A stretch of 64,000 bases of DNA from Kiloniella laminariae DSM 19542 (GTDB lineage: Bacteria; Pseudomonadota; Alphaproteobacteria; Kiloniellales; Kiloniellaceae). The DNA lies in the NCBI RefSeq assembly GCF_000374005.1, contig NZ_KB893157.1:153-64152 (forward strand), given 5' to 3'. Shown here piece by piece: positions 7,772 through 36,023 of the stretch (positions are counted from its first letter, which is position 1; the number at the start of each line of letters is the position of its first letter). A program made the position numbers and the translations under genes. The notes below the pieces were generated by a model that was given only the letters and a program-made list of their open reading frames with translations, was not told where the DNA came from and did no database searches.

Positions 7772-8691
7772 GAGCCCTCGAACCCTTCCTGACGCTTTCT
7801 AAATACAGATAGCAAGCCTGAAAGCATCCCAAACAGATGATTTTTCCTTGGAGCGTCCATATGTCGGAGAAAACCCAAAAAGGCGATTAAAAAAAGGCCA
7901 AAAATTGCCCAAGCAATTGCTGGTTTTGAAAAGGTTGCCATTTTTCTTGTGAAATAGAGGCGGTTGAAAATTTGCTGCCGACCAAATACAAAACGTTTGC
8001 TATCAGGAATCTCGCTGGGGTAGTGCCAACATTTACTATCTGCTACAACATAAAGTCGATGTGATCTGGAAACGCGGTAGCTATAATCGAGATCTTCCAA
8101 ATAACCGTGTCCTATATACCACTCATCATATTGTATTTTTTCAAATATCTCCCTTTTCCATAGAGTAGCACCGCCATAAAGCCATTGTGTTTCAATTGTT
8201 TGAGCAGGGTATGGAATCGATGTGGCGAAGCCAGAGGTTAGTACTTTTCCTGGGTCAGAGCCGTCGATGCCGAAAAAACTATACAATTTTTTTCTGACAG
8301 GTATCGGTTGATTGACCACCCCTAGAGATGCGCCACCAGTATCCTTAGACGTGGTCTGCCAGAAGGAGAGCATTCTTTCATTAGCATCTGGTGCTAACTC
8401 AATGTCATCATCCAGATAGCCAGCAATAGTAATATTTGGTTTGACCGCGGCCATTCCAGCATTACGCTGTTTGGATAATGAAGGAGGGAAACAGCGAACA
8501 TATGTGATTGGGAGCTTAGGGTGCTTCTTGCAAAGGCCCTCTATTGAGGGTGATGATCCGTCACATATAACAATTTGCTCTGGCGGGACACTCTGTTTTT
8601 CAAAGCTATTGAGTAATACTTGTAGATCATCAGGACGGTCTTTTGTCGGAATGACGTAAGCGATTTTAAGAGAATTTTCAGCGCTACTCAT
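7759..8691 (-). CDS. Glycosyltransferase family 2 with C-terminal membrane segment
   Basis: 310 aa with an inverting GT-A fold. The start AYVIPTKDRPDDLQVLLNSF is classic GT2. The metal-binding acidic cluster is in AGYLDDDIELAPDA (about residues 90-103), and a late EDLDYSYR block supplies the catalytic base region. A hydrophobic stretch near residues 258-275 (AWAIFGLFLIAFLGF) should anchor it in the inner membrane. The start overlaps the dehydrogenase gene at 8688 by 4 nt (ATGA type). The sugar transferred is unknown. Confidence 0.85.
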   Translation of the reverse strand: MSSAENSLKIAYVIPTKDRPDDLQVLLNSFEKQSVPPEQIVICDGSSPSIEGLCKKHPKLPITYVRCFPPSLSKQRNAGMAAVKPNITIAGYLDDDIELAPDANERMLSFWQTTSKDTGGASLGVVNQPIPVRKKLYSFFGIDGSDPGKVLTSGFATSIPYPAQTIETQWLYGGATLWKREIFEKIQYDEWYIGHGYLEDLDYSYRVSRSHRLYVVADSKCWHYPSEIPDSKRFVFGRQQIFNRLYFTRKMATFSKPAIAWAIFGLFLIAFLGFLRHMDAPRKNHLFGMLSGLLSVFRKRQEGFEGSWKE

Positions 8692-9656
8692 TGAGGAAAA
8701 ATGCCTTTTTGAGGAAGCTGATTGTTGACTAAACCCTCAATAGCCGCTCGTCCCATTGCTAAAATTGCCTCTGCAGCACTTCCTCCGATATGTGGGGTGC
8801 TAATGAAGTTATCTAATTGTATGAGGCCTTTATTTTCTGGCGGCTCAATAGCAAACACATCAAAAGCTGCTCCAGCGAGTTGCCCACAACGCAAAGCGTT
8901 TTCTAAAGCCACCTCATCAACTAATCCACCTCGTGCTGTATTAATAAGAATCGCATTTCTTTTCATCATAGCAAGACGTTCCTTAGAAATTATATTAGTT
9001 GTTGTATTATTCAGTGGAACGTGAAGGCTAATTATATCGGCCTGTAATAATATTTCATCTATATCAAGAGCATGAACATTATGTTTTTTGTAGAATTCTG
9101 AGTAATCTTTTATGTCGTAAGCAAGAATTTTACTACCCAAGGCTCTTAAAATCTTTATGAGATCTTTACCGATATGTCCGCATCCAATGATACCAATAGT
9201 TTTATTGCTTAATAATTGACCAGGAAGTACTTGCCATTTTCCATCACGAATTTGACGTGAACTTTGATCTATATTTCGGGTTAACGAAAGCATCATACAA
9301 AGAGCTAACTCAGAAACAGATCGTTTGTTAACTCCGCCAACCCATCCTAGGTGTATGTTGTGCTTCGTGAGAGCGTTTAAGTCGATTTTATCAAAACCGA
9401 CACCGAACTTACTGATGGTTTTTAATCGCGGAAGTCGAGTAATGATTTTTTCAGTAACAGGTTCCAAGGCCACAATTGCACCATCCATACCTGAAAGAAA
9501 TGAGATTAGATTCTCATCTTGTAAGCTTGTGCCCTCATCATTAAAAATCGCGTTGGGGTAGAGAGACAGAAGCTCCTTTCGTAAAATTGGATGGCGAGAA
9601 AAACTGCGTGAAGCAACTGCAATATTCCACGAGGCGTCGGCTTTGTATTTGGTCAT
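8688..9656 (-). CDS. D-2-hydroxyacid dehydrogenase, SerA/PGDH-like
   Basis: 322 aa, the length of a short (no ACT domain) phosphoglycerate-dehydrogenase-like enzyme. The NAD-binding loop is in TIGIIGCGHIGKDLIKILRA (about residues 150-169). The catalytic Arg lies in NTARGGLVDE and the His in STPHIGGSA. These enzymes interconvert 2-keto and D-2-hydroxy acids. It heads a leftward operon with GT2, GT4 and the asnB-type gene at 4597. Near an aldolase/KdsB-like set (10.5-13.8 kb), it may reduce or oxidise a precursor of an unusual sugar acid or a glycerate substituent; that part is inference. The promoter should lie in 9657-9733. Confidence 0.8.
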   Translation of the reverse strand: MTKYKADASWNIAVASRSFSRHPILRKELLSLYPNAIFNDEGTSLQDENLISFLSGMDGAIVALEPVTEKIITRLPRLKTISKFGVGFDKIDLNALTKHNIHLGWVGGVNKRSVSELALCMMLSLTRNIDQSSRQIRDGKWQVLPGQLLSNKTIGIIGCGHIGKDLIKILRALGSKILAYDIKDYSEFYKKHNVHALDIDEILLQADIISLHVPLNNTTTNIISKERLAMMKRNAILINTARGGLVDEVALENALRCGQLAGAAFDVFAIEPPENKGLIQLDNFISTPHIGGSAAEAILAMGRAAIEGLVNNQLPQKGIFPQ

Positions 9657-9733
9657 TGTTATCTTATGTTAATCACATTAAAGTTGTAGTGTTTCTTATG
9701 CATTTCTCATTAAGTTTATAACTGATTATTAAT

Positions 9734-10501
9734 ATGACACAAGCGGACAACATAAAGCATAGTACCGAATTAAAGCTTGCTAAATTTCTTGCCGTTAAAG
9801 CAGGTGATGCTTTGCGAGAGCATGCTGGTGAGTGGGGGGGGGCTGTTGCTTTGCCCGAGAGGGACGTCAAGGTTAAGGGAGATACTGAGGCAGAAGAAAT
9901 AATTATCTCCGGCTTGAAAGCGAGCTCTGAGTTTCCAATTTTTTCCGAAGAATCTGGCTGGGCGGTACCCAGTCATGATAAGCAAACACCCATCTGGATT
10001 GTTGACCCTCTTGACGGGACTTATAATTACTCTCGGGGGCTTCCTTCTTGCTGTACAAGTATCGCTCTTGTTCAGTATGGGGTTCCTCTACTTGGTGTCA
10101 TTAATGATTTCAATCGAAATGAAGTTTTCTGGGGTGAAGTGAATTCTGGGGCTTGGTTAAATGGTACAAAAATTCAAGTCTCTATGACAACAGACCCAAG
10201 TGTAAGCGCGCTAATGACAGGGTTTCCTGTGAAACGTGATTTCTCTGTTGAGGCGTTGTCTCGTACAGCTATTGAAATGGGGCGTTGGAAGAAAGTCCGG
10301 ATGATTGGTTCTGCAGCTCTGTCGCTGGCACAAGTCGCGTGTGGCCGAGCTGATGCTTATCATGAAGAGAATATTATGTTTTGGGATGTGGCTGCTGGCT
10401 TGGCTTTGGTCAGTGCTGCTGGAGGCTTAACAAAAATGGGATTAGCCTTAGCTGATGAACCTCGTACAGTATGGGCAATGAACAGTTCTCTCAAACTTTA
10501 A
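9734..10501 (+). CDS. Inositol-monophosphatase-family sugar phosphatase
   Basis: 255 aa. It has both metal-site motifs of the family: SEESG preceding WIVDPLDGTYNYSRG (DPLDGT, about residues 93-98), and the C-terminal FWDVAAGLAL. The Mg-dependent enzyme would remove phosphate from a small sugar, inositol, histidinol or nucleotide substrate. In this context a sugar-acid or heptose phosphate is plausible. It lies on the plus strand between two leftward operons, and its end overlaps the convergent SIS gene by 11 nt. No good Shine-Dalgarno precedes ATG 9734. A different start is possible, but the first helix fits the family. Confidence 0.85.
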   Translation: MTQADNIKHSTELKLAKFLAVKAGDALREHAGEWGGAVALPERDVKVKGDTEAEEIIISGLKASSEFPIFSEESGWAVPSHDKQTPIWIVDPLDGTYNYSRGLPSCCTSIALVQYGVPLLGVINDFNRNEVFWGEVNSGAWLNGTKIQVSMTTDPSVSALMTGFPVKRDFSVEALSRTAIEMGRWKKVRMIGSAALSLAQVACGRADAYHEENIMFWDVAAGLALVSAAGGLTKMGLALADEPRTVWAMNSSLKL

Positions 10502-11096
10502 CGGCTCTCATGAGATAACTTCCAACTATATGATCCAGAATCATGTGGAGGTCCTCAACAGGGCCGTACTCTCCTTTGGCTGTTTCAATAAGTATGGATA
10601 GATCTGATACTTTGCCACTTATACCACCGTCAAAGCCACATAGAGATACGGTCTTTGCACCAATTTTTTTTGAATATTCCAATGCTTTGACAATATTTGG
10701 GGAATTACCTGAAGCAGAAATGGTTATGACCAGATCTTTCGGGCGAAGAAGATTTTTCAACTGGAGGACAAAGAGGTTTTCATAGCCATCATCGTTAGCA
10801 ATTGCAGTCATAACGGCATTGTTGTCTGTTAGACTCTGTACTCGAAATGGTTTGCCGGGGGCACGTGTTCCTAATCCAATATCATTTGCGAAGTGTGAAG
10901 CCGTTGCAGCGCTCCCCCCATTACCAATAAAAAAAATTGACTTGTCATCTTCTCGAGCCTCTAAAAGTAACTCTATGAACTGTTCTACCTTCTGGTAATC
11001 CAGTTTTTTGAGCAGTTCGCACAGATAAAGAGAATACTCACGGGCGTATTCCGAAGGAGAAGATATTTCTGTGAAAATTATGTCGAGTTTGTTCAT
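10491..11096 (-). CDS. SIS-domain phosphosugar isomerase, GmhA-like
   Basis: 201 aa, the size of a sedoheptulose-7-phosphate isomerase (GmhA). The SIS phosphosugar loop is clear: FFIGNGGSAATASHFANDIG and later ISASGNSPNIVKAL. A C-terminal EDLHMILDHI supplies the catalytic Glu/His region. It probably isomerises a ketose phosphate to an aldose phosphate in the same pathway as the genes at 11118, 12191 and 12980, with which it forms a leftward operon (gap of 21 nt to the next). By position it could supply the aldehyde acceptor for the HpcH-type aldolase. An arabinose-phosphate isomerase-like role is the alternative. Confidence 0.83.
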   Translation of the reverse strand: MNKLDIIFTEISSPSEYAREYSLYLCELLKKLDYQKVEQFIELLLEAREDDKSIFFIGNGGSAATASHFANDIGLGTRAPGKPFRVQSLTDNNAVMTAIANDDGYENLFVLQLKNLLRPKDLVITISASGNSPNIVKALEYSKKIGAKTVSLCGFDGGISGKVSDLSILIETAKGEYGPVEDLHMILDHIVGSYLMRAVKV

Positions 11097-11117
11097 AAAT
11101 GAGCCATTTTCTGTAAC

Positions 11118-12179
11118 TTAATCAATTGAAATACTATACTTGCTTTGCCATTCAGGATCAGCGCAATAGATGCGGTAAACTAACTCCATCGTTTTGAGGG
11201 CGTCAAGGCTTGTTCCTACGGATACAGGTTGGTCGTTCAATATGCTGTCAGCAAATTCTGCTATTTCACGTTCCCACGAGTTATCGTATATGTAGCTCGT
11301 GGTTGTTTCTCTTGGATTACCACCATTTTCTTCTTCGCGATAGGCAATAGTAAGTACTTCTTGTCCATAAGAGCGTGTGCTTGAAAGAATACCTGAAAGT
11401 GTTAAGGCTCCTTTTTCAAACATCATCTCTAGAGAAAATTTATGACGCCATTGTGTGGCGCTAGATTGGATAAAAGCAACAACTCCTTCATTGGTACGCA
11501 TAAGAGCATAGGCGTTGTCTTCAACATCTTTATTCCAGAAGTCATTTGTGACGAAGCTTTTTATCTCCGTGAACTCTCCAGCATAACAGCGAATTAGGTC
11601 TAGCATATGTATTCCCTGATCCAGAAGGATGCCTCCGCCAGCTATTTCTCTTTGCGCGCGCCAATAAACTGGGTCGTTAGGATCTGTAATGCCTTTGATC
11701 TTTGGCGTGAGGACTGACTTTCCATAAATCCCGCGAATGTTTATGATTCTGCCAAGGGTTTTCTCTTTAACTATTTTAAGCGCATCCAGTACTGAATCGT
11801 GATATCTGTGGTTAAAGCCATATTTTAATTTTAAATTCGAGTAACATTTTTCAACTTCAATTACTCGGCGTATATCCTGAACATTGCGGCCAGGAGGCTT
11901 TTCGCAAAAAACGTGACAGTTCTTCTTCAATCCCATTATCGTGGCGTCGGCAGCGACATGATTCGGTAAACAAACAAAAAGAACATCAAGATCCTCTTGC
12001 TCAATCATTTGACGATAATCGCCGTAATAGCAGAGATTATTCCGCTTTTCTCTTACAAGGTTGTATGTTTGATCACTAACTGCAGTTACGCAAAAGAGCG
12101 GATGCATATCAATGAAGTTATGGCGCCGTTTGCCGACTAGCCCATGTCCTGCGATGCCAACTTTTAGTTTTTTTGTCAT
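11118..12179 (-). CDS. Gfo/Idh/MocA-family oxidoreductase
   Basis: 353 aa. The N-terminal Rossmann domain begins KLKVGIAGHGLVGKRRH, a slightly altered GxGxxG. The conserved CEKPPGRNV block (about residue 93 on) provides the catalytic Lys of EKP. GGGILLDQGIHMLDLIRCY is the substrate-domain signature with the catalytic His/Asp region. It oxidises or reduces a sugar (often a nucleotide sugar or free cyclitol) with NAD(P). It lies in the operon aldolase-KdsB-Gfo/Idh-SIS and may set the oxidation state of a sugar intermediate. The exact substrate is unknown. Confidence 0.85.
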   Translation of the reverse strand: MTKKLKVGIAGHGLVGKRRHNFIDMHPLFCVTAVSDQTYNLVREKRNNLCYYGDYRQMIEQEDLDVLFVCLPNHVAADATIMGLKKNCHVFCEKPPGRNVQDIRRVIEVEKCYSNLKLKYGFNHRYHDSVLDALKIVKEKTLGRIINIRGIYGKSVLTPKIKGITDPNDPVYWRAQREIAGGGILLDQGIHMLDLIRCYAGEFTEIKSFVTNDFWNKDVEDNAYALMRTNEGVVAFIQSSATQWRHKFSLEMMFEKGALTLSGILSSTRSYGQEVLTIAYREEENGGNPRETTTSYIYDNSWEREIAEFADSILNDQPVSVGTSLDALKTMELVYRIYCADPEWQSKYSISID

Positions 12180-12190
12180 TTTGCCAACAG

Positions 12191-12961
12191 TTATTTGATA
12201 TTCAGGTATCGGGAAGTAATATCATCTTTTTCTAAAAACACCTCTGCTCGCTTGCGATCGTTTTCTGTGTCGACACCAATAGTTTCTACTTCACTCTTGA
12301 TGGAAAACAGTGGGATGCCATTTTCTATAAGTCGCAACATATCGATTGATTCTGCAATTTCGAGAGGTGTTTGTGGAATTCCGGCATATTTAGTTAAAAA
12401 GGATGAGGAGTAGGCGATAATTCCGGTTTGTTGATACATTTCAACCGTTGAGCTTCTCGAGCGACTAGGAATTGGACTCCGTGAGAGGAAAATTATCCGA
12501 TTTTCCAAATCTGTAACGATCTTCACCACGTTAGGATCATCATGCTCTTTAATGTTATAGAGTCGACTAACCAGATTAATAGCGGGAGCCTTCGTCTTTT
12601 TGTAGAGACGAATCATATCATCTAAAAGTTCAGGATTGACCATAACTTCATCCCCTTGAACCATGAGAACGAGATCGTCTTCCTTGAGATTGAAGTTACC
12701 GTTCTCGATTGCTTCAGCTACACGATCAGTACAACGTTCATGCTTGTTTGAAGTCATTATGGCTGAGCCGCCGACATTAACGATACAGTCGTAAATTTCC
12801 TGGTCACAAGTTGCGACGATAACATGGTCAATTTCTTTGGCTAATTGACAGCGTTCCCATACATGTTGAATTAAAGGCATGCCTAAAAGATGTTTCATAG
12901 GCTTTCCAGGGAACCGGGAGGAGGCCATTCTGGCCGGTATAATACAAATTGACTGTGTCAT
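12191..12961 (-). CDS. KdsB-like CMP-ulosonate cytidylyltransferase
   Basis: 256 aa. It has the KdsB signature set: IIPARMASSRFPGKPM (CTP-binding loop), MVQGDEVMVNPE (the metal/substrate VQGDE block, about residue 99), DPNVVKIV, FLSRSPIPS and GVDTENDRKRAEVF. KdsB joins CMP to 3-deoxy-manno-octulosonate. A second KdsB paralogue inside a glycan island, next to an aldolase and with no KdsA nearby, more likely activates a related 2-keto-3-deoxy sugar acid. The housekeeping kdsB would be elsewhere. It sits 18 nt behind the aldolase gene. Confidence 0.82.
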   Translation of the reverse strand: MTQSICIIPARMASSRFPGKPMKHLLGMPLIQHVWERCQLAKEIDHVIVATCDQEIYDCIVNVGGSAIMTSNKHERCTDRVAEAIENGNFNLKEDDLVLMVQGDEVMVNPELLDDMIRLYKKTKAPAINLVSRLYNIKEHDDPNVVKIVTDLENRIIFLSRSPIPSRSRSSTVEMYQQTGIIAYSSSFLTKYAGIPQTPLEIAESIDMLRLIENGIPLFSIKSEVETIGVDTENDRKRAEVFLEKDDITSRYLNIK

Positions 12962-12979
12962 GGATTAAGTGGCTCTGAT

Positions 12980-13759
12980 TTAGTATTTGTTAGTGACGAT
13001 TTTGAGGTCAGTTGTTACTTCTGAGAGTTTTTCGGCCAAAAAGATCATATCTGTGCCGTAAGCAATGAAGCGAAACCCCTGTTCAATGTTACTCGCAAGA
13101 GAAGCCCTGTCAGTGTGTACTACATGTATGCCACCAGCTTTATCAGATGTTTGGCAAAAGCGTTTCGCTTTGTTCAAGGATGCCGCAACTTCAGGAGCTG
13201 TGAAGTCGCCAGGCTTTCCAAACGAACCTGAGAGGTCGTAGGGTCCTATCATAAAAGCATCTACGCCGGGAACAGAAACAATTTCATCCAGTTGATCAAC
13301 AGCATCTTTATGTTCAATCTGCACGATAACAACGATTTCAGGTGCTACATTTTCTTTATAATAATCAAAGGACGTGCCATAACCTTGAGCACGAAATAAA
13401 CCGACCCCACGTTTACCAATTGGTGGATAATAGACGGAATCAACCACACGCTGTGCTTCTTCTCGAGAATTGACCTGCGGAACGATGATGCCTTTCGCAC
13501 CACAATCCAGTGCGCGCTTGATCTGCAATGGATCATTTGAGCCGACCCTCACAAAAGCTGAGACACCTGCAAGATCGATCACTTGAATCATTTGCCCCAT
13601 CGTTTCACTTGAGATTCCTGTGTGCTCCATATCGACCACAAGCCATTCAAATTGACCCAAACGCGCCATCATTTCTGTAATGTTAACGTTCGGTATACTC
13701 AACCAAGAGCCAATTGTACTTTCTTTGTTAGCCAATTTACGTTTGATTTGATGGGACAT
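12980..13759 (-). CDS. HpcH/HpaI-family pyruvate aldolase
   Basis: 259 aa class II (metal-dependent) aldolase that makes or breaks a bond between pyruvate and an aldehyde. All residues known from E. coli HpaI are in place: His46 (DMEHT), Arg71 (FVRV), Gln147 and Glu149 (IVQIEHK) and Asp175 (GPYDLS). It is therefore predicted active. It is the first gene of a leftward operon with KdsB-like, Gfo/Idh and SIS genes. A good Shine-Dalgarno (AAAGG) precedes ATG 13759. HpaI homologues usually serve aromatic catabolism. The present neighbours suggest synthesis of a 2-keto-3-deoxy sugar acid instead (inference). Confidence 0.85.
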   Translation of the reverse strand: MSHQIKRKLANKESTIGSWLSIPNVNITEMMARLGQFEWLVVDMEHTGISSETMGQMIQVIDLAGVSAFVRVGSNDPLQIKRALDCGAKGIIVPQVNSREEAQRVVDSVYYPPIGKRGVGLFRAQGYGTSFDYYKENVAPEIVVIVQIEHKDAVDQLDEIVSVPGVDAFMIGPYDLSGSFGKPGDFTAPEVAASLNKAKRFCQTSDKAGGIHVVHTDRASLASNIEQGFRFIAYGTDMIFLAEKLSEVTTDLKIVTNKY

Positions 13760-13797
13760 GAAAAGCCTTTAAGTTTACGCTTGGGGTATCCATAGGA

Positions 13798-13839
13798 ATG
13801 CCGCTTCCTTAATGATATATCTGGATTAAGGAGCGGCAT
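13798..13839. repeat. Long intergenic hairpin between divergent aldolase and pgl genes
   Basis: A near-perfect inverted repeat: ATGCCGCTTCCTTAAT (13798-13813) pairs with ATTAAGGAGCGGCAT (13825-13839), with one bulged T and an 11-nt loop. It lies in the 117-nt gap between two divergent starts, so it is not an end-of-gene terminator, and neither side has a T run. It could be an operator or a leader structure of either transcript. Confidence 0.7.
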
Positions 13840-13876
13840 AAAGAGGTTATTGAGCAACAGGCTATGAGTAGAAGGC

Positions 13877-14551
13877 ATGCAAGTAATCAAAGTCAAATCT
13901 TTGCAATCACTGGTTCATGACGTGGCCGAAATGTGTTCGGAGTATCTCAGATCTGTGATATCTGAACAGGGTAGAGCAGGCCTCTTCCTCTCTGGAGGAA
14001 GGACACCGAAAGATTACCTTCCTGGACTTTTCCAGCAGGAACTGCCTTGGGAAAGAGTTACCATTTCTCTGACTGATGAGCGCTGGGTTCCCGCAGGTCA
14101 TCCTGATTCGAATGAGGGATTGGTAAGAAAAATTCTTGAAAAACACGATGAAGCCCAAAAGGCTACTTTTTTGGGTTTTTACGGGGAGGAAGAAACACCT
14201 TTCGAAAGCATTGATCGCCTGGAAGAAGTGCTAATTTCAGCGGAGTTCCCCTTTACAACCGCGCTACTGGGGATGGGAGAGGATGGTCATATTATGTCGC
14301 TCTTCCCCGATGGGCGCTGCAAGGAAGGAAAATACGGTTTGTGTGTCGCCACCGATAATAGTCCCAAGCATCCTCGAATGTCTCTGTCCTATGATGCGTT
14401 GGCAAGAATAAAGGCACCTATTTTGATTGTGATTGGTCAGGAAAAAAATGAACTTCTCGATAAGGTTATGGCAGATTTGGATAATTGTCACCACTATCCT
14501 GTTCAGCGTCTTCTTCAACACGAGAACCTAGCAGTTATTCAAATGGTTTAA
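13877..14551 (+). CDS. pgl: 6-phosphogluconolactonase
   Basis: 224 aa, the usual size of DevB-type Pgl. The signatures are LFLSGGRTPKDYLPGL (phosphate loop), SLTDERWVP and LLGMGEDGHIMSLFPDG with its catalytic His. It hydrolyses the lactone of 6-phosphogluconate in the oxidative pentose phosphate pathway. Its usual partners zwf and edd are not here. It sits alone on the plus strand, divergent from the HpcH aldolase operon, and its 3' end overlaps the convergent gene at 14535 by 17 nt. A role on a lactone made by the nearby sugar dehydrogenase is possible but unproven. AAGG lies just before ATG 13877. Confidence 0.83.
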   Translation: MQVIKVKSLQSLVHDVAEMCSEYLRSVISEQGRAGLFLSGGRTPKDYLPGLFQQELPWERVTISLTDERWVPAGHPDSNEGLVRKILEKHDEAQKATFLGFYGEEETPFESIDRLEEVLISAEFPFTTALLGMGEDGHIMSLFPDGRCKEGKYGLCVATDNSPKHPRMSLSYDALARIKAPILIVIGQEKNELLDKVMADLDNCHHYPVQRLLQHENLAVIQMV

Positions 14552-16439
14552 TTATACAGGAGGAGGGTGGGGCAGCCCCAGGAAGAAAACGTGAGATTGC
14601 ATCCTCGGAAACAGGATGGAAATACTGCTGAATATAGTTTTGCGCTTTCTCACGCTCTCTAACGTAATGCTCATCGGACCACTTGTCGATTGTTGAAATG
14701 GCCCCGTTGAGTGGGCGGTTCGTCGATGCGAGGACTTTGAACGAGCTCATTTCAGACAGGGGGTCGTAGTCAAAAAGCCCTTCCTTTTTGAAGTGGAGCA
14801 ATGGCAATCCATATAGTACTGCTTCCAATGCGACTGTTGTGCTCCAGTACAAAACAGCATCGCAGTCACGGAGGTCCTCCAGAACACTTTCTTGTTTACT
14901 GACCTGAATGTTGTTCGGCAGTGGTCCACGATATTCCAGGTGCGAAAGAAATTCTTGCAGAGGCAGGACTGGATGACAACGCACCAAAAACGTTATATCC
15001 GGAGCCTCAGGTGCCTCACGGAGGAGATAGGCGACCATGTCTGCAGCTTCGATCAACCCCTCGAGGGCAACGAGAATTCTTTGACAAGGAGAGCGTCGGG
15101 CATTTCTGGATTTGATGTTGAAGAGATACTCGTATCTCAAGGCGCAAGCGGGTTCCACGCGTCCAATATTGCCCTTGCCATAGCGGCGAAGGATTGATGC
15201 CGTTGCGGAGCCGGTTGTCAGTATTTTATCCGGAGCGGGACGAAAGGCTTGCTCTTCCCTGCTGGTGAACATTCCCAAAGCTGCAGGTGGCACAACGGAA
15301 TGTTGATAACCCAAGATTGGAAAACCACTTTTCTGCCTCAGGCCCCTGATGAGCATAAGTTCCCAAGGATTGGCTTCGCAGGTGGTCACAAAGGCTTCGA
15401 TATCGAAGTGCTGAGCTATTTGCCGCCCGTTTTCCTCCATCATCGACTGGGGAAGCTGTATTGTCCAGATCGCCTCTTCAAGTGCGGCCTGGGCTAAAGG
15501 AGCCCAGTTTATTCCTGTCAAATTCGCGGACGCGTCTGGCAGTTGCGTCTGATCCATTGATAAGAATTGGGGGGATCGAAGGGGTTTGAAAGCCGCATAA
15601 AAAACAATTCTGGCGAGCTCTACAAAAGGTGTGAGCACAGACAGGAAGACCTCGGATGGAATTAGTTTATGGCGCAATGAGGGAGGGATGTTTGCATAAC
15701 ACTCAAGCCTGTCAGAAAAGCCCTGTATGATCGTTACGACCTCTTTGCCGCGTTGTTCAAGATGCTGGGCAAGCGGACCGAAGAAGGGATCCCTATAGGT
15801 CTGATCATCCTTGAAAGCGGTTTGATAGGTGAAGCTTCTGATCAGGTAAACTGAAGAAAGAGAGCGACCAGGTCTGCCATATCTGCGCTTTGCTTTAAAA
15901 ATCCACCGTGCCGAACGCAGGGCTTCTTTTGACAGCGTGGCTATTTGCCTAAGGCGCCTTGAGAACTTTTGCGATTTTTTGAAAGAAGCGCTGCAAACTG
16001 CGACACCTTCGGAGTGTGCCAATATTTGCGTTGCCTGGGCCAAAATGACAGGAGCGTTTTTTTCGAAGAGCAGCTCCAGCTGATTTTTCTTCGCAAAATA
16101 CACGACAGCGTGAGCGACTATCCAGTTGTCTGCCTCTGTTATCGTTGCTGCATTCACACGGTTCCGAGATGCGACGTCTGTCGCCCACCACAGCGGATGG
16201 GTGCGATTAAGACTGCTTAGGGGGCCCATCATTGCGACATAGGCAGTGACTAGAGAGCTTTCTTGAGAAGTACCGGTTCCCGAAAGGCTGCTTGAAAAAT
16301 CAAAAGGAGCAACTCGACTTGAGCCCCCAGCCCCCCGTAGTTTCAACCACCAGAGAGGAGTGTCATTCCATCCGTTGTTCGAGGCATGTAATTGCATCAT
16401 CCCGCTCGCTGGTCGCGATTTGATCTCAGTTTTTCTCAA
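14535..16439 (-). CDS. Large GT-B-like surface carbohydrate protein
   Basis: 634 aa, not certainly assigned. The C-terminal half resembles GT-B proteins of surface-glycan loci: GFPILGYQHSVVPPAAL, PDKILTTGSATASILRRYGK, ITFLVRCHPVLPL, and CDAVLYWSTTVALEAVLYGLP, which matches a nucleotide-sugar site followed by a helix. This pattern is like polysialyl/Kdo-type transferases and the TIGR04326-style family. The N-terminal 200 residues have no feature I recognise, apart from a basic stretch (KAKRRYGRPGRS). There is no signal or membrane segment. It is translationally coupled to the FkbM gene at 16426 (14-nt overlap). Transfer of an acidic sugar is a guess. Confidence 0.5.
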   Translation of the reverse strand: MRKTEIKSRPASGMMQLHASNNGWNDTPLWWLKLRGAGGSSRVAPFDFSSSLSGTGTSQESSLVTAYVAMMGPLSSLNRTHPLWWATDVASRNRVNAATITEADNWIVAHAVVYFAKKNQLELLFEKNAPVILAQATQILAHSEGVAVCSASFKKSQKFSRRLRQIATLSKEALRSARWIFKAKRRYGRPGRSLSSVYLIRSFTYQTAFKDDQTYRDPFFGPLAQHLEQRGKEVVTIIQGFSDRLECYANIPPSLRHKLIPSEVFLSVLTPFVELARIVFYAAFKPLRSPQFLSMDQTQLPDASANLTGINWAPLAQAALEEAIWTIQLPQSMMEENGRQIAQHFDIEAFVTTCEANPWELMLIRGLRQKSGFPILGYQHSVVPPAALGMFTSREEQAFRPAPDKILTTGSATASILRRYGKGNIGRVEPACALRYEYLFNIKSRNARRSPCQRILVALEGLIEAADMVAYLLREAPEAPDITFLVRCHPVLPLQEFLSHLEYRGPLPNNIQVSKQESVLEDLRDCDAVLYWSTTVALEAVLYGLPLLHFKKEGLFDYDPLSEMSSFKVLASTNRPLNGAISTIDKWSDEHYVREREKAQNYIQQYFHPVSEDAISRFLPGAAPPSSCIIKPFE

Positions 16440-18423: not shown

Positions 18424-20265
18424 TTAGTCCAATTGAAACAGGTTTTGCCAATCTTGTTCTTCAACGTAGACGGGTTGTTCTTCTTTTTTCAGGAGATATG
18501 GGCCCAATACAAGAGCATCCATCTCAGTACGCATGAAACAACGATACGCATCTTCAGGACTTTCCACGATAGGTTCTCCACGGACATTGAAAGAGGTGTT
18601 GATTAGTACCGGGCAGCCTGTTTTCTCTTTGAATTCACTGATCAATGCATGAAGACCAGGATTACTTTCTTTGTGAACGGTTTGAAGTCGAGCGGAACTA
18701 TCTACGTGCGTAACGGCCGGGATTTTTGACCGAACTTCATTTACCCTATTTAGATCGTATTCATCGCATGATGAATTTTGGAGAATACATTTATCTTTCT
18801 TTACATGGCCGACCATCAGCATGTAAGGGGAGGAAAAATCCTCTTTAGTATTGTGTTGGCCGTCTACGTCAAACCATTCGCGGACATCCTCAAAACGTAC
18901 CATGGGTGCAAAGGGACGGAAGCTTTCACGATACTTGATCTTAAGGTTCATGACCGATTGCATCGTTTCTGAACGAGGATCTCCGAGAATTGATCTGGAT
19001 CCCAGTGCGCGTGGTCCAAATTCCATCCGGCCATCAAAGCGCCCAATTACATTGCCTTCTGCTATTAGCGCCGCAATGGTACTACAGCGTTCTGTCTCGT
19101 CTTCAATGAAGACCGCTGGAAGTTCACGGCTTTCGAGAAAAGCTTTGATCTGGCCGGTATCATATTCAGGGCCCAAATATGAATTTGATTGACGATCAAG
19201 CTTAACAGTGCTTTGGCGAGGATTTCCTAGATGATTGTACCAAGTCCATAATGCTGCACCGAGAGCGCTGCCGGCATCTCCGGATGCTGGCTGAATCCAT
19301 AGACGCTTGAAGGGACCTTCCCTATAGAGTCTTCCGTTTGCAACACAATTTAATGCAACGCCTCCCGAAAGGCAGAGGTTCTCTTCTCTTGTTTCTTTGT
19401 ATATATGTGAACCAATCTGTAAAATGATCTCTTCAGTGACCTTTTGGATCGAGCTTGCAAGATCCATGTCAAGCTGGGTGATTTCACTTTCTGGGGGTCT
19501 TGGTGCACGATCGAAGAGCTTGTGAAACTTTTCTGTCGTCATTGTGAAATCAACACAGTAGTTGAAGTAGCTCATGTCCAGACGAAATGAACCGTCATTT
19601 TTGAGGTCGAGCAAATTGTCAAGAATTGTTTCTACATAGCGAGGCTTTCCATATGGAGCGAGGCCCATCAGCTTGTATTCACCTGAATTAACCTTGAAAC
19701 CACAGTAATAGGTGAAGGCGGAATAAAGCAAGCCAAGGGAATGAGGGAAGCGAATTTCTTGCTGTATCTTCAGTTTGTTGCCTTTCGCAACACCGTAACT
19801 AAGCGTTGCCCATTCACCAACGCCGTCCATGGTCAAAAAAGCAGCTTTATCAAAAGGAGAGGGGTAAAAAGCTCCTGCAGCATGAGATTCGTGGTGCTTA
19901 GGTGAAATAATGGGGCCTTTAAAACCCAACTCTTTTCGAATCAGCTTGTTTAACCACAACTTCTCCCTGATCCAAAGGGGCATGGCGCGCGCGAAGGAAC
20001 CGAGGCCAGCGGGAGCATGCATAAGGTATGTCTTGAGCAGGCGGTCCATTTTCAGGTTGGACTGCTCGTAGAAACTCACATAATCCAAGTCTTCACTGCT
20101 AATATTTGCCTCTTGTAGACAATATTTTATTGCATTTTGGGGAAAGGACGCATCGTGTTTCACACGGGTAAAGCGTTCTTCCTGCGCGGCGGCAACGATT
20201 GTTCCATCACGAACCAAGCAGGCTGCACTGTCATGGTAAAACGCAGAGATGCCTAATATTAACAA
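18424..20265 (-). CDS. NodU/CmcH-family carbamoyltransferase
   Basis: 613 aa, full length. The N-terminal half is an ASKHA-like domain starting LILGISAFYHDSAACLV, with EERFTRVKHD and KHHESHAAGAFYPSPF, the His-rich catalytic site. LCLSGGVALNCVANG and PASGDAGSALGAALW follow. The C-terminal YrdC-like domain has GPRALGSRSILGDPR and RPFAPMV. It uses carbamoyl phosphate and ATP to O-carbamoylate a hydroxyl, here presumably on a sugar. The start overlaps the SGNH/TPR gene by 7 nt. A dedicated 48-aa partner follows. Confidence 0.92.
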   Translation of the reverse strand: MLILGISAFYHDSAACLVRDGTIVAAAQEERFTRVKHDASFPQNAIKYCLQEANISSEDLDYVSFYEQSNLKMDRLLKTYLMHAPAGLGSFARAMPLWIREKLWLNKLIRKELGFKGPIISPKHHESHAAGAFYPSPFDKAAFLTMDGVGEWATLSYGVAKGNKLKIQQEIRFPHSLGLLYSAFTYYCGFKVNSGEYKLMGLAPYGKPRYVETILDNLLDLKNDGSFRLDMSYFNYCVDFTMTTEKFHKLFDRAPRPPESEITQLDMDLASSIQKVTEEIILQIGSHIYKETREENLCLSGGVALNCVANGRLYREGPFKRLWIQPASGDAGSALGAALWTWYNHLGNPRQSTVKLDRQSNSYLGPEYDTGQIKAFLESRELPAVFIEDETERCSTIAALIAEGNVIGRFDGRMEFGPRALGSRSILGDPRSETMQSVMNLKIKYRESFRPFAPMVRFEDVREWFDVDGQHNTKEDFSSPYMLMVGHVKKDKCILQNSSCDEYDLNRVNEVRSKIPAVTHVDSSARLQTVHKESNPGLHALISEFKEKTGCPVLINTSFNVRGEPIVESPEDAYRCFMRTEMDALVLGPYLLKKEEQPVYVEEQDWQNLFQLD

Positions 20266-22259
20266 TGGCTTGTTCCTAGTGATTGAGGGAGACGCTTCAG
20301 GAGTTCAGACAAGGAGGCATCATAGTCGGATAAAAGCTTGGTACAATCCTTATTTTGATCAAAGCCACTACAGTAATTCTCATGTACAGAAACTGTTTCT
20401 TCAAGAAAAGCTATCAATTGATCCAGTTCTGAGCGTAACTTTCTTCCGTGCTTTTGGTCCAGGTAAGCGGCTACAGCCAGTGCTTCTGCGCACTGTTCTA
20501 ATAGGATGCGTTCATAGCGCATGGAAACTCGCGAATGAGAGCCAAAGCGGAGAGTTTCTCTAAAATACCAATAGATTGTGGAAATCAGTCGCTCATGGAT
20601 AATGTTACCCTTAGACAGGTGAGTTGCTAACGTTGCGCGAACCTTTGTCAGAATATTTGAAATCCATCGCACTTCGGTCTCTTTGTCAAGGTCAGGTGGG
20701 GTATCAGAAATCCATTCCTGAGCCCTTTCCGGCAGAATGGATTTCATTTCTCCAGACAGTCTCAGGATCTTCTGCTCTGTATTGAAAAGAGGATAGAGTG
20801 CGGCGTTGCTTTCTATGGCCTTCAAGTATGGAGGCAGAAAGCGCGCAAAGATAAATTCAGGGAAGCGCCCGACATCGGTCGCGCGGAGAGGGCCCACATT
20901 TAGAATATCTAGATATTTGCTAAAGCAAGGGTGGCATAAGTGATAGTCGAGCGCCTCCAGAAACCTTTGGGGCATGTTCTGAAGTTGGTGTGCGGGAACG
21001 CCTTTTTCCAATTGTGAGACAAGACGTTTCTGTAGGTCTTCTATTTCTGATGGAGGCAAGTCTGTGTATGATTTGAAATAGCTGTGAAACTCTGCTTCAT
21101 TGCCTTCTACATACTCTGGATTGAAGAGGTGATTTTCGATCTGTAGTATTTGATCCCCTTTTGTTAAAGGCGCAGGAAGTTTGTCGATGATTGCATCTGC
21201 AATTTTGTTTTGCGCATTCTGAAGTGGATGGCAATGGTCAATGAAATCAGTTGTTTCGACAAGCTCCCTCATATCGACCATCGTGGCGTTAGAATATCGC
21301 AATGAGAGTTTATCAATAGCGGATTTGTATGGGTTGCGCACGCGGTACATGGAAGTATCAGTTTCGAACGATTTGTCCAAGTATTCCCTATATGCTTTTG
21401 CGTCTTCTTGTTCCCGGCGGATTAACGCTAAGTTATAGAGAATTATTTCTTTACGCGCGTTTCGTTCCTTGAGGAGCAGTTCTAGCAAATATTCTGCTTC
21501 CTTGAATTCTCCTAATTTTGCTTTTGAGATTGCGTAGTTATGGACAACAAGTGTTTGAAATTCCAATGAACTTACGAGGGGGCCTGATTTTTCGAGGATA
21601 TTCACGTATTGTTCTGCTGCTGCTGAGAAGTCTCCTTTTTCAAAAGCCTTCATTGCCTGTATGAAACGTTGATCTTCAATCATAAGCTTTTGTGATGCCG
21701 CATATTGCAGGTCAAGGTAGTGGTAAAAAATGAAGTTTCCTTTTCCAGCTCCTGCAGGGAAGAGGGTATTGGCTTCAGGTCGGATCAAGCAAACCGGTAT
21801 AGAACGTTTAGCGCAGTGAGCGACTACTTTTGCAATGTTGCTCTCAAAGTCATGCGATGATACCGGTGCTTCGAGATCCTGATCGAATAATGGGTTCCAA
21901 GTGTAATAGAGGAGTCTGTTCTTTAAGCGTGCTTTAGGGTGTTCACCATCTGGTGATTTTACCAAGCGTTTTAGGCGATCCTTGACTACAGAAAACTCGC
22001 CCTTCCGCAATTCAGTGCCCATAGTATCGCAATTGCCAAGATAGATAATGACAGCCTGAATCGTTCCAAATTTCTTTTGGTTTCTGAAAAAAAATGCAGC
22101 AGCATCGGCAGATGTTATACCTGGAAGGGAGCAGTTAATCAGCTTGGTGTTTGCTGGCCAAATGGGGCGTTCAGCCAAGCGGAAGGGGTACATAATTTTT
22201 TCCATGCCAGTTGACATGCTGGCGGAATCACCGAGTATCACAATCGAATTTTTAAGCAT
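20259..22259 (-). CDS. SGNH-hydrolase-like protein with TPR-like helical region
   Basis: 666 aa. The start SIVILGDSASMSTGMEKI carries the GDS block I of SGNH/GDSL hydrolases. YLGNCDTMG looks like block III (GxND region), and DFIDHCHPLQNAQ near residue 340 supplies the block V Asp/His. Between these, about residues 195-300, lies a helical repeat region (QAMKAFEKGDFSAAAEQYVN, LGEFKEAEYLLELL) typical of TPRs. The C-terminal 300 residues are unassigned and mostly helical. It may be an acyl-ester hydrolase or transferase acting on glycan O-acyl groups. It has no signal peptide. The start overlaps the 65-aa gene's stop (TGATG). Confidence 0.6.
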   Translation of the reverse strand: MLKNSIVILGDSASMSTGMEKIMYPFRLAERPIWPANTKLINCSLPGITSADAAAFFFRNQKKFGTIQAVIIYLGNCDTMGTELRKGEFSVVKDRLKRLVKSPDGEHPKARLKNRLLYYTWNPLFDQDLEAPVSSHDFESNIAKVVAHCAKRSIPVCLIRPEANTLFPAGAGKGNFIFYHYLDLQYAASQKLMIEDQRFIQAMKAFEKGDFSAAAEQYVNILEKSGPLVSSLEFQTLVVHNYAISKAKLGEFKEAEYLLELLLKERNARKEIILYNLALIRREQEDAKAYREYLDKSFETDTSMYRVRNPYKSAIDKLSLRYSNATMVDMRELVETTDFIDHCHPLQNAQNKIADAIIDKLPAPLTKGDQILQIENHLFNPEYVEGNEAEFHSYFKSYTDLPPSEIEDLQKRLVSQLEKGVPAHQLQNMPQRFLEALDYHLCHPCFSKYLDILNVGPLRATDVGRFPEFIFARFLPPYLKAIESNAALYPLFNTEQKILRLSGEMKSILPERAQEWISDTPPDLDKETEVRWISNILTKVRATLATHLSKGNIIHERLISTIYWYFRETLRFGSHSRVSMRYERILLEQCAEALAVAAYLDQKHGRKLRSELDQLIAFLEETVSVHENYCSGFDQNKDCTKLLSDYDASLSELLKRLPQSLGTSHC

Positions 22260-22456
22260 CAGAACAATGGGTAAACATCATCACCAACAGTGCTGGTATC
22301 TGAGGTTTTTTCCCCCTTTAATTGACGGATCTCCTCTTTTTTAAGCAGAGGATAGAATATTAAACCGTAAAATAGGTATTTGGCTTTTTCTTGCCATGTC
22401 TTTTTTGAGCGGGCAAGTTTGAGAATCAGTACTTGGAGAGTTTCGTTCATATCCAA
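22259..22456 (-). CDS. Small conserved-position protein between two SGNH genes
   Basis: 65 aa, function unknown. The N-terminal half is a basic amphipathic helix (LILKLARSKKTWQEKAKYLFYG), followed by a short hydrophobic FYGLIFYPLL and a polar tail. I accept it as a gene because of packing: its start overlaps the upstream SGNH gene by 10 nt, and its TGA shares a base with the next ATG (TGATG), an arrangement typical of coupled genes. Met3 is an alternative start. By analogy with the 48-aa protein at 18272 it may be a small membrane-associated partner of its neighbours. Confidence 0.6.
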   Translation of the reverse strand: MDMNETLQVLILKLARSKKTWQEKAKYLFYGLIFYPLLKKEEIRQLKGEKTSDTSTVGDDVYPLF

Positions 22457-23445
22457 CCCTTATCCTCCAAGGTTGCACTTACAACTTCACCAAAAATCCG
22501 ATGGCCTTTAACGTTGATGTGACCGTCGTTAAAAATCACTGGGTCTTCTGCAGTATGTTCTGATAACATTGGAGCAGTCATATCCACCCAGGCCACGTTT
22601 AGTTTGTCTAGTGTTTGTATCAGACGTCTACGGGGTAGGTTGTAGTCGACGAGCAGGGAGGGAGGGCTATTGTAAAACTGCTGATGGATAACGCCTAATG
22701 AAAATAGCAGCTTAATGTTATTTTTACGACAATGGTCGCGAATGACTGCGATGACCTTTTCCGCAAGAGTATTGATGTAGTCGTAGTGGTTTCCTTTCCA
22801 CTGAAAGAACACGGGATCGGTAAGCGGATCGTAATCTGATGCCAGCTCAATACCTGATCGGAATTCATTGAGCTCTTTCCTGTAGGCGTAATAACGGCCA
22901 ATCAAATTCCGAACCGAAGTATATTTCGCGTAGTTCGGCACCTTTTGAAAACAAAGTTTCCCAGTTTTATCGAGGCTGAAAACTGGTTTGAGATATCCGT
23001 TTACATAGTTATTCAACAGTCTGACAATTGCCCATGGGTGTTGCTCAATAACAATTATTTTGGGGTTGTATTTTGCTGATTTTTGCATGAGGGCGACACA
23101 TACTTGGTCAAGCCCGAGACTACAATGCCCCATGTTTACAATCTGTTCACCAGTGAGTTCTCTCAGAACGTCAGAATATCGTTCTGTCTGGTTGACACCT
23201 CCTCCCCATGAATGTGAGCCACCAATACAGACAATACTGTTTTTTGAATCTTTGGGAAGGTATGGAATGTCTCTGTTGCCATCTTCATTATGGACGACAT
23301 CGTATACACCTGCTTCACCTTCTGAGGTCATCTCAATGGACTTAACACCCCAGAAGCCAACTTCTGCATTAAATTCGTAAGCACGCTTAGCGACCTGATT
23401 TTTTTTCTGCTTGTGGGCTTGAAGAAGTCTTGCGAGGAGGTTCAT
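22447..23445 (-). CDS. SGNH/GDSL-hydrolase-like protein
   Basis: 332 aa. SIVCIGGSHSWGGGV (about residue 70 on) is a block I nucleophile motif of the GxSxxxG type, and NDGHINVKGHRIFGE near the C-terminus is the block V Asp-x-x-His. The middle carries IIVIEQHPWAIVRLLNNY. It resembles the SGNH proteins that add or remove O-acetyl groups on extracellular polysaccharides. No clear signal peptide is visible, though the first 30 residues are basic. With the gene at 20259 it makes a pair of different SGNH proteins in one operon, probably a two-step modification (inference). Confidence 0.65.
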   Translation of the reverse strand: MNLLARLLQAHKQKKNQVAKRAYEFNAEVGFWGVKSIEMTSEGEAGVYDVVHNEDGNRDIPYLPKDSKNSIVCIGGSHSWGGGVNQTERYSDVLRELTGEQIVNMGHCSLGLDQVCVALMQKSAKYNPKIIVIEQHPWAIVRLLNNYVNGYLKPVFSLDKTGKLCFQKVPNYAKYTSVRNLIGRYYAYRKELNEFRSGIELASDYDPLTDPVFFQWKGNHYDYINTLAEKVIAVIRDHCRKNNIKLLFSLGVIHQQFYNSPPSLLVDYNLPRRRLIQTLDKLNVAWVDMTAPMLSEHTAEDPVIFNDGHINVKGHRIFGEVVSATLEDKGWI

Positions 23446-25147: not shown

Positions 25148-25852
25148 TTAGCTGATCAATTTCATGTGCTGAAAAAGAGCCTCTGCTATTCTCCAGTCGT
25201 CTTCTGTATCAATATCTACAGATCTATGTTTGGGTAAGATATGGCCTACAAAATTGTGATAAGTACCTGGGCCTGTGCAATCCAAGATCTGCTGTGTCGG
25301 GAAGATTACGTAGTTCCCTGTGTGATAGTAGTGTTCTTCTATATCTTGAGACCTAATACCCATTTTGTTGTTTTTCACTGGTGAGAGGCTGTGATCTTTA
25401 TTCTGAGAAAATGCCCATTCAATTGGAGCGGGGAAAGGGGTAACGGAAAGAACCGCTTTTAGTCCTCTGTGGGACGAGAATATATCAGCGGCCTCTTGCA
25501 GATCTTTCGGGAGTACTAAAGGGGAGCAGGCCATTAGTAGGCAAACAGCATCAAACTCTTTGCCACATTTCTTGTGTTGATATATTGCTTCCTGTAGGAC
25601 AGGTATCAATGGGGAATGGTCATCTGACCAATCTGATGAACGTTCAAATTCAGGGGGGAAACCTGCTGCCGATACAATTTCCCGAACTTCTGCGTCATCT
25701 GTTGCGACATGAATCGTGTCAAAAATCTCTGTTTTTTTAGCGCAATCCAGGATATGCATAATCATCGGTTTTCCGCAAAAGTCCTTGATGTTTTTCCGGT
25801 GAATTCGCTTGGATCCTCCTCGTGCTGGCACGATAGCCAATATTTTCATCAT
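25148..25852 (-). CDS. pseF: Pseudaminate cytidylyltransferase (PseF)
   Basis: 234 aa. The N-terminus LAIVPARGGSKRIHRKNIK is the CTP-binding loop of CMP-sialate/pseudaminate synthetases, followed by FCGKPMIMHIL, LLMACSPLVLPKDL and the C-terminal HRSVDIDTEDDWRIAE metal-binding block. It couples CMP to a nonulosonic acid. The presence of PseB, PseC, PseG and PseI homologues in the same island identifies the substrate as pseudaminic acid or a close relative. It lies 71 nt behind pseC in the leftward operon. Confidence 0.85.
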   Translation of the reverse strand: MMKILAIVPARGGSKRIHRKNIKDFCGKPMIMHILDCAKKTEIFDTIHVATDDAEVREIVSAAGFPPEFERSSDWSDDHSPLIPVLQEAIYQHKKCGKEFDAVCLLMACSPLVLPKDLQEAADIFSSHRGLKAVLSVTPFPAPIEWAFSQNKDHSLSPVKNNKMGIRSQDIEEHYYHTGNYVIFPTQQILDCTGPGTYHNFVGHILPKHRSVDIDTEDDWRIAEALFQHMKLIS

Positions 25853-25923
25853 GGGTTCTCTTTTTATCGGGAAGTTGGCGGGATAAGGGCTTGGAGCGTC
25901 AAGCCTAGGTCTTATAGGTCAAC

Positions 25924-28109: not shown

Positions 28110-28168
28110 TGTACTTGATCCTTATCTAATTTTTCTATGCAATTTTTGAGAAAATACAAATTTCTATT

Positions 28169-30081: not shown

Positions 30082-30106
30082 TGTTTATACTTTATAAAAT
30101 ATTGGA

Positions 30107-31003: not shown

Positions 31004-31025
31004 TGTCGTTTCCTTGATAGATTAT

Positions 31026-32356: not shown

Positions 32357-32358
32357 TC

Positions 32359-33435: not shown

Positions 33436-33461
33436 TGGAGCTGTCCAAAGAGTAAAGAGAG

Positions 33462-34499: not shown

Positions 34500-34523
34500 G
34501 TCGCCGTTTCATTCACTATTGAG

Positions 34524-35971: not shown

Positions 35972-36023
35972 AGGTAGATACCTTTTATGCGATTAAGGTG
36001 TTTCCCATTGACGAAGAGTTTAG

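Follow-up and report, generated by a model that had tools for sequence, protein, structure and literature searches.

To our knowledge, the described pathways to ulosonic acids activated with cytidine 5'-monophosphate (CMP), namely those of 3-deoxy-D-manno-octulosonic acid (Kdo) and of the sialic, legionaminic and pseudaminic acids, all use phosphoenolpyruvate (PEP) and a synthase of the KdsA or NeuB type. A stretch of 64,000 nucleotides from Kiloniella laminariae DSM 19542 (contig NZ_KB893157.1, positions 153 to 64,152; termed the window) raises the question of whether another carbon-carbon step is in use. In the window, a gene for a KdsB-like cytidylyltransferase stands beside a gene for an aldolase of the HpcH/HpaI family, and the two are accompanied by genes for a Gfo/Idh/MocA dehydrogenase, a GmhA-like SIS isomerase, an IMPase-type phosphatase, a D-2-hydroxyacid dehydrogenase and a 6-phosphogluconolactonase (6PGL). 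These seven genes are referred to as the module.

The explanation that we favour is a dedicated surface-glycan CMP-ulosonate module with pyruvate aldol addition; as a whole it is the best explanation, with a probability of about 0.5. Its parts differ in strength. There is hardly room for doubt that the module is real and conserved, and it is likely that it makes a CMP-activated 2-keto sugar acid other than Kdo, while the chance that pyruvate aldol addition is the carbon-carbon step is even or slightly less. An undescribed route, by which a surface sugar acid that is neither Kdo nor of the sialic type would be formed and activated, is probably in use in bacteria and archaea of many phyla, and the widespread module, apparently undescribed, would be a new variant of CMP-ulosonate biosynthesis. 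A literature search, conducted mostly outside the subscription journals, returned no description of such a module by title or abstract, and no aldolase appears in the available excerpt of PMC3694923.

Linkage of the aldolase and the cytidylyltransferase

One genome per species was scanned with an alignment of four aldolases (that of the window, two from genomes of its class and one from an Acuticoccus plasmid). The best 80 of 396 aldolase relatives gave 80 loci, which make 82 clade loci with the plasmid and the window, and 83 when a further locus, L124, is added. The 23 control loci, all from one class, comprise 20 hand-picked stretches around other HpcH hits and three paralogue loci (L038, L039 and L042). 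Neighbouring genes were scored with profiles built from neighbour clusters and run on the 82 clade and 23 control loci; the Fisher tests count related loci as independent. A long-flank set consists of the 54 loci in which the aldolase is flanked by over 5 kb in either direction.

A cytidylyltransferase, either NeuA-like or KdsB-like, is situated near the aldolase in 78 of the 82 clade loci as against 1 of the 23 other HpcH loci (Fisher, 1.3e-17), which rules out chance neighbours. The sole control hit, L124, is itself a module, with epimerase-type, aldolase, 6PGL, HAD, KdsB-like and 2-hydroxyacid dehydrogenase genes. When it is added, the pair is present in 79 of 83 loci, lies within 1 kb in 55 and on the same strand in 78, and the nearest cytidylyltransferase of the 79 paired loci belongs to the NEUA cluster in 41 and to the KDSB cluster in 38. 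The four loci without the pair are a stretch of 5.2 kb (L123), one that ends just past the aldolase (L052), and two roomy loci that still give no hit (L066 and L076). The preliminary description of this DNA had pointed to conserved co-occurrence of HpcH and cytidylyltransferase genes as a consequence of its proposal, and the co-occurrence is indeed strong and extends across phyla.

The listed clade aldolases share 45-57% identity with that of the window. Two of 53-54% identity were found on searching 289 genomes of the class, where the other listed non-self hits reach 30-41%; a cytidylyltransferase-like open reading frame (ORF) adjoins both, and that of the first matches PseF with 87 bits. The Acuticoccus plasmid aldolase (49% identity) adjoins a cytidylyltransferase as well. 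By our own count from record titles, the carriers span about 20 phylum-level groups, including Pseudomonadota, Desulfobacterales, Bacteroidota, Chloroflexota, Omnitrophota, Campylobacterales, Syntrophomonadaceae, Nealsonbacteria and four archaeal records; across these groups the module appears to replace the PEP synthase with a pyruvate-type aldolase. Most carriers are metagenome bins; Syntrophomonas wolfei subsp. methylbutyratica, Polaribacter glomeratus and P. septentrionalilitoris are among those that are named strains. The module is widespread but rare: among 398 genomes of the phylum, just 7, one of them that of the host, encode an aldolase that the clade alignment matches with an E-value of 1e-80 or lower.

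Carriage by phages or viruses was rejected: a search of viral contigs with the window aldolase as the query, which reaches close relatives only, confirmed no relative, and phages gave no match to the L114 aldolase at E 1e-30. Gene fusions were considered as added evidence and set aside, since none joins module enzymes and the only two observed are of transferase type (L107 and L066).

The aldolase clade

The window aldolase falls below the equivalog cut-offs of the catabolic enzymes HpaI (182.7 vs 368.8 bits), GarL (165.6 vs 406.75 bits) and RhmA (137.6 vs 441 bits), and HpcH_HpaI is its sole Pfam match at E up to 0.001. CMP-activated phosphonates exist; a reading of the protein as a PEP mutase of phosphonate synthesis was dropped on account of this single match. 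In a tree of 108 sequences, 83 module aldolases form one group with a support of 0.916 and zero controls inside, and the L124 aldolase is placed just outside. The 83 sequences represent 82 loci, as a Nealsonbacteria bin (L086) contributes two clade aldolases, which lie side by side on opposite strands.

D43, E45, H46, R71, E149 and D175 are invariant in all 83 clade aldolases, the window copy included, so that the complete catalytic set noted in the preliminary description is a property of the entire clade. Other positions mark the clade against an outgroup of 24 sequences, from which L124 was left out and in which E. coli RhmA and GarL were included: H150 (80/83 vs 0/24), F131 (82/83 vs 0/24), Q125 (76/83 vs 0/24) and Y174 (82/83 vs 3/24). 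A G-x-H212 loop, two residues longer, is present in 83 of 83. The catabolic HpaI, GarL and RhmA share the fold family and the complete catalytic set with the module aldolase; the H150, Y174 and G-x-H212 marks set the clade apart from them, and the module aldolase, unlike them, is found in glycan gene context.

According to the available excerpt on HpaI of Acinetobacter, its structure has an acceptor cleft lined by Trp21, Leu214, Val236 and loop 110-136 of the neighbouring subunit (PMC8560999). H212 stands opposite E. coli HpaI L212 in a pairwise alignment and is part of an insertion in the multiple alignment; we take L212 to correspond to Leu214 of that structure, which would put H212 near a cleft position. 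The counterpart of Val236 is variable in the clade (L in 41, V in 15 and T in 12 of 83). It would seem that the pyruvate chemistry is preserved and that the acceptor side has been remodelled. Among solved HpcH homologues, one is named hydroxyketoacid aldolase (6r62 group).

The KdsB-like cytidylyltransferase

Against the kdsB equivalog TIGR00466, the window protein scores 150.7 bits, just under the cut-off of 155.2, and it passes two looser NCBIfam subfamily models named for KdsB. The KdsB-like module proteins form a clade of their own (39 sequences, support 0.996) apart from 31 ordinary KdsBs, which are 30 of the 38 over-cut-off proteins from 58 genomes together with E. coli KdsB. L124 and a partial row (L063) are among the 39, of which 38 are scorable at the sugar-side positions.

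The residues for cytidine 5'-triphosphate (CTP) and metal, as named for Aquifex KdsB in the available excerpt of PMC3149649, are conserved in 38 of 38 scorable module rows (R10, R15, K19, Q98, D100 and D235), and R157 is also kept in the clade. Four sugar-side positions, by contrast, read H/Y/E/Q in 31 of 31 ordinary KdsBs and Q/I/D/M in 32 of the 38 module copies, including that of the window. The remaining variants are QNDM (2), QYDM (2), QMDL (1) and HIDY (1, L124), and one further row is gapped. In E. coli KdsB the four are H181, Y185, E210 and Q211, which we take, from the structure of that enzyme, to be Kdo ligands. All four lie in or beside the domain that is said to bind Kdo in the excerpt of PMC3149649. 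These changes on the sugar side indicate that the module product is probably not Kdo.

Cytidylyltransferases of the module are easily mislabelled in annotation as enzymes of Kdo or sialic acid; the copy beside the aldolase on the Acuticoccus plasmid is labelled "acylneuraminate cytidylyltransferase family protein". Three plasmid records match a KdsB-like module protein, with 39-41% identity.

KdsA and NeuB in the module genomes

The host has a single KdsA (416 bits), on contig C34 and hence outside the module contig, and an ordinary KdsB of the H/Y/E/Q type (218 bits, contig C1). The module is therefore an extra pathway; its role as a replacement of Kdo synthesis, with the aldolase standing in for the PEP synthase of that pathway as the preliminary description had it, is ruled out by these two genes.

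KdsA was sought in 50 genomes that we chose from the 80 module genomes. It exceeds the cut-off in 30, some match to the model is present in 44, and 20 have no KdsA over the cut-off. Nineteen of these 20 match PF03102 (NeuB) above its gathering score of 22.1 bits, and the other, G323, gives no PF03102 match. In G308, G329 and G336 the sole PF03102 matches are partial (48, 32 and 32 bits); we read them as DAHP-synthase-like genes because they are located where the weak KdsA-family match lies. G308, G323, G329 and G336 all have a cytidylyltransferase at the module position (on the same contig, judging from coordinates). Beyond the module, G329 has none, and a single additional weak match is present in G308 (26 bits) and in G336 (21 bits); the module of G336 has two. 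Apart from the aldolase, these four of the 20 genomes show no recognisable enzyme that would make the 2-keto acid. G321 looks similar and was excluded from the four because a NeuB-like fragment lies at the end of one of its contigs. NeuB is near 15 of the 82 clade modules, and the NeuB of the window is about 19 kb from the module, within a gene set of its own.

Accessory genes and cassette types

Among the accessory genes, that of the 2-hydroxyacid dehydrogenase is the most frequent: it is found in 61 of the 82 clade loci and in 3 of the 23 controls (L124 is one of the three), and within 8 kb in 47 of the 54 long-flank loci. The corresponding counts are 35/82 vs 1/23 for the Gfo/Idh dehydrogenase, 25/82 vs 1/23 for the SIS isomerase and 13/82 vs 0/23 for the IMPase. 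Lactonases of two kinds occur, 6PGL in 8 and a PF04199 cyclase in 26 of the 82 clade loci; one or the other is present in 31 of 54 long-flank loci, never both. A phosphate-removing enzyme (HAD, IMPase or AroB-like) is found in 44 of 54, with an overlap of 1. That enzymes of each kind replace one another suggests that lactone opening and phosphate removal are pathway steps. HAD and SIS genes exclude each other in the long-flank loci (29 with HAD, 16 with SIS, 0 with both; Fisher, 9.7e-8).

Three cassette types can be distinguished. Cassette A, in 29 loci, combines a HAD with an epimerase-type dehydrogenase, which was scored by a broad cluster (EPIM) that can take in sugar epimerases unrelated to the module and which has only generic SDR relatives in NCBIfam and PDB searches. 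Cassette B, to which the window belongs, consists of Gfo/Idh, SIS and IMPase genes (7 loci), and cassette C has SDR and AroB-like genes besides Gfo/Idh and SIS (5 loci); 13 of the 54 long-flank loci are outside all three. The AroB-like gene of L044 (8904-9971) matches TIGR04425 with 440.3 bits. This AroB-related family of putative cyclizing sugar phosphate phospholyases is found beside the aldolase in cassette C and not in the module of the window, and the cassette C context may help to assign its function. AroB-like genes and an SDR near the aldolase were also observed, by cluster profile only, in L045, L047, L048, L050, L054, L087, L119 and L120.

The 6PGL of the window is the only one found in the host genome. 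It has no canonical partner there, because a search for the glucose-6-phosphate dehydrogenase (G6PD) family (zwf; PF00479) gave no match in that genome, which is listed as 100% complete.

Comparison with known pathways

The CMP-Kdo pathway consists of KdsD, KdsA, KdsC and KdsB. The module resembles it in having a SIS-fold protein, a phosphatase and a KdsB-fold CTP:ulosonate transferase with its CTP and metal residues. It differs from it in that a PEP synthase is absent, the sugar-side positions are changed, dehydrogenases and a lactonase are added, and the phosphatase of the window is an IMPase rather than a HAD. The NeuB/NeuA pathways of the nonulosonic acids (sialic, legionaminic and pseudaminic) share CMP-activation with the module, and a NeuA-type enzyme replaces the KdsB type in about half of the modules; the aldolase, however, takes the place of the PEP-using NeuB, which is near just 15 of 82 modules.

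Of the Kdo-like CMP-ulosonic acid proposed earlier, the conserved pair stands, across phyla and also in genomes without KdsA (20 of 50), and the one-to-one Kdo template falls. Not every role in Kdo synthesis has its counterpart, since about half of the long-flank loci are without the SIS gene and carry an epimerase-type dehydrogenase and a HAD instead. The lactonase and the 2-hydroxyacid dehydrogenase, which had been treated as mere neighbours, recur with the module (31/54 and 61/82) yet have no counterpart in Kdo synthesis. The earlier suggestion of a new 2-keto-3-deoxy acid is retained in so far as the product is probably not Kdo; its 3-deoxy nature is not established, given the Kdo enzymes of the host, the exchange of HAD and SIS, and the recurring lactonase and 2-hydroxyacid dehydrogenase.

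Proposed pathway and competing explanations

In the pathway that we propose, the SIS isomerase, Gfo/Idh dehydrogenase, lactonase, IMPase and 2-hydroxyacid dehydrogenase would yield a small unphosphorylated carbohydrate, the order of these steps being conjectural. The HpcH-family aldolase, running in the biosynthetic direction, would then add the metal-bound enolate of pyruvate, the presumed donor, to a carbohydrate aldehyde as the putative acceptor, giving a 2-keto ulosonic acid, probably a 3-deoxy one. From this acid and CTP the KdsB-like enzyme would make a CMP-sugar, and a neighbouring transferase, perhaps the TIGR04326-like protein described below, would put the sugar onto a glycan. The product of the aldolase is probably the molecule that is activated, because aldolase and cytidylyltransferase are the tightest pair in the module. 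If this pathway is correct, many such genes are misleadingly named, and a family of surface sugars is still to be described.

Several observations weigh against it. Pyruvate addition alone leaves the 2-hydroxyacid dehydrogenase (47/54) and the lactonase (31/54) unexplained, and these two genes suggest a route from aldose through aldonate to 2-ketoaldonate; moreover, the three cassette types fit no single acceptor. The associations themselves have exceptions, as 7 of 54 long-flank loci are without the 2-hydroxyacid dehydrogenase and 3 of 54 without a cytidylyltransferase within 5 kb (51 have one). Clade loci are largely in glycan regions and controls, drawn from one class, largely outside them, so that the difference in general glycan genes is partly due to context; context does not account for how closely the aldolase and cytidylyltransferase genes are spaced. 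Some of the NeuA counts may stem from nonulosonic acid pathways, NeuB being near 15 of the 82 modules. The absences of KdsA and NeuB may be gaps, because most module genomes are metagenome-assembled and all four of the genomes counted as NeuB-less are metagenome bins, and three of the four do exceed the low gathering score of PF03102. G323 also has a second cytidylyltransferase (85 bits) that is unexplained.

The recurrence of the lactonase and the 2-hydroxyacid dehydrogenase is at the heart of an oxidative alternative. C1 of a sugar phosphate would be oxidised by the Gfo/Idh or the epimerase-type dehydrogenase, the lactone opened, the phosphate removed and C2 oxidised by the 2-hydroxyacid dehydrogenase; the HpcH protein would epimerise C4 of the resulting non-deoxy 2-ulosonic acid through retro-aldol cleavage and re-addition, and CMP-activation would follow. 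Nearly every accessory enzyme is given a textbook step, and the interchange of lactonases (31/54, never both) and of phosphate-removing enzymes (44/54, overlap 1) and the sole 6PGL of the host without a G6PD partner agree with such a course. The oxidation positions are, however, guessed from family names, the tightest pairing, that of aldolase with cytidylyltransferase, is left unexplained, and we know of no HpcH-family epimerase, which further weighs against it. In its favour, E. coli HpaI is reported in the excerpt of PMC8560999 to be without stereospecificity, and a hex-2-ulosonic acid occurs in the E. coli K3 antigen capsule according to the title of a reference in PMC10433991. On balance we regard this oxidative course as unlikely, though well short of negligible. 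Similarly doubtful is its generalisation to a third CMP-sugar-acid route without a PEP synthase, in which sugar phosphates would be converted through aldonates to 2-ulosonic acids and the HpcH enzyme would remodel the chain by retro-aldol epimerisation or exchange. With such a PEP-free oxidative route, the surfaces of bacteria and archaea would bear an undescribed series of non-deoxy CMP-sugars, whether hexulosonic, heptulosonic or carbocyclic (cassettes A, B and C).

The SerA-like dehydrogenase, with a phosphatase, might instead supply hydroxypyruvate as the donor, which the aldolase would add to a sugar aldehyde to give a 3-hydroxylated ulosonic acid for CMP-activation. This donor would suit the commonest accessory gene, whose protein has phosphoglycerate dehydrogenases as its nearest relatives, and the HpcH homologue named hydroxyketoacid aldolase; it is nonetheless improbable, since the lactonase, Gfo/Idh and SIS genes are left without explanation and the AroB-type cassettes would dephosphorylate a sugar, not phosphohydroxypyruvate. 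That the KdsB-like enzyme merely activates extra Kdo from the KdsA of the host, with the aldolase as an unrelated or catabolic neighbour, is highly improbable: the host does have KdsA (416 bits) and KdsB (218 bits) and the protein passes two NCBIfam models named for KdsB, but the sugar-side H/Y/E/Q has become Q/I/D/M, the pair is linked across about 20 phylum-level groups, also in genomes where KdsA does not exceed the cut-off, and the aldolase scores below the HpaI, GarL and RhmA thresholds.

Organisation of the locus and surrounding genes

The host genome comprises 4.44 Mb in 38 contigs, and the window is on contig C24. All seven module ORFs (8688-14551) are intact, and a Pfam search of the window proteins matched their families far above the cut-offs (Table 1), in full agreement with the genes, families and coordinates of the preliminary description. 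Four minus-strand genes (13759-10491) are separated by 11, 18 and 21 bp, a spacing as in an operon. The 2-hydroxyacid dehydrogenase gene is on the same strand as these four, past the plus-strand IMPase gene, and the lactonase gene is divergent, upstream of the aldolase gene. The solved structures closest in sequence to the Gfo/Idh protein include glucose-fructose oxidoreductases and inositol dehydrogenases.

Table 1. Module genes of the window, the adjacent candidate transferase gene and genes of the nonulosonic-acid-like set
Feature	Coordinates	Strand	Match or remark
HpcH/HpaI-family (class II pyruvate-type) aldolase, CMP-linked clade; core gene	12980..13759	-	PF03328 (HpcH_HpaI) 102.7 bits
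KdsB-like CMP-ulosonate cytidylyltransferase, sugar-side positions changed; core gene	12191..12961	-	PF02348 (CTP_transf_3) 144.8 bits
Gfo/Idh/MocA dehydrogenase, probably sugar or sugar-phosphate oxidoreductase	11118..12179	-	Gfo/Idh C3 domain 75.8 bits
GmhA-like SIS isomerase	10491..11096	-	SIS_2 67.4 bits; GmhA equivalog 94.9 bits, below cut-off of 209.45
IMPase-type phosphatase, likely acting on a sugar intermediate (putative substrate)	9734..10501	+	PF00459 (Inositol_P) 164.2 bits
D-2-hydroxyacid dehydrogenase (SerA-like)	8688..9656	-	PF02826 (2-Hacid_dh_C) 191.2 bits
6-phosphogluconolactonase-family lactonase	13877..14551	+	Glucosamine_iso/6PGL 151.1 bits; TIGR01198 (pgl) 146.9 bits, over cut-off
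TIGR04326-like surface carbohydrate protein, candidate transferase for the activated sugar	14535..16439	-	TIGR04326 76.2 bits, below cut-off of 250; putative role
Second cytidylyltransferase	25148-25852		nonulosonic-acid-like set
DegT aminotransferase	25924-27114		nonulosonic-acid-like set
Polysacc_synt_2 (CapD-like) protein	27111-28109		nonulosonic-acid-like set
Hexapeptide transferase	31655-32356		nonulosonic-acid-like set
NeuB	32359-33435		nonulosonic-acid-like set

The TIGR04326-like protein next to the module is homologous to module cluster c21, whose profile it matches with 166.4 bits (E 5e-49); this cluster is represented in 17 of 82 clade loci, the window included, vs 0 of 23 controls. 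Two MptE-like clusters, c14 and c22, occur in 17 and 11 of the 82 clade loci vs 0 of 23 controls. We infer that the MptE-like and TIGR04326-like proteins are transferases for the activated sugar.

Further into the glycan region, the proteins of 20259-22259 (666 aa) and 22447-23445 (332 aa) have no Pfam or NCBIfam match at E 0.001. The protein of 18424-20265 belongs to cluster CARB and is read as carbamoyltransferase-like; the cluster is represented in 7 of the 82 module loci, of which the window is one, and in none of the 23 controls. The protein of 23492-25126 has a match to TIGR04417 (PFTS motif polysaccharide protein), and the stretch 25148-36000 contains a separate set of nonulosonic-acid-like genes that includes NeuB.

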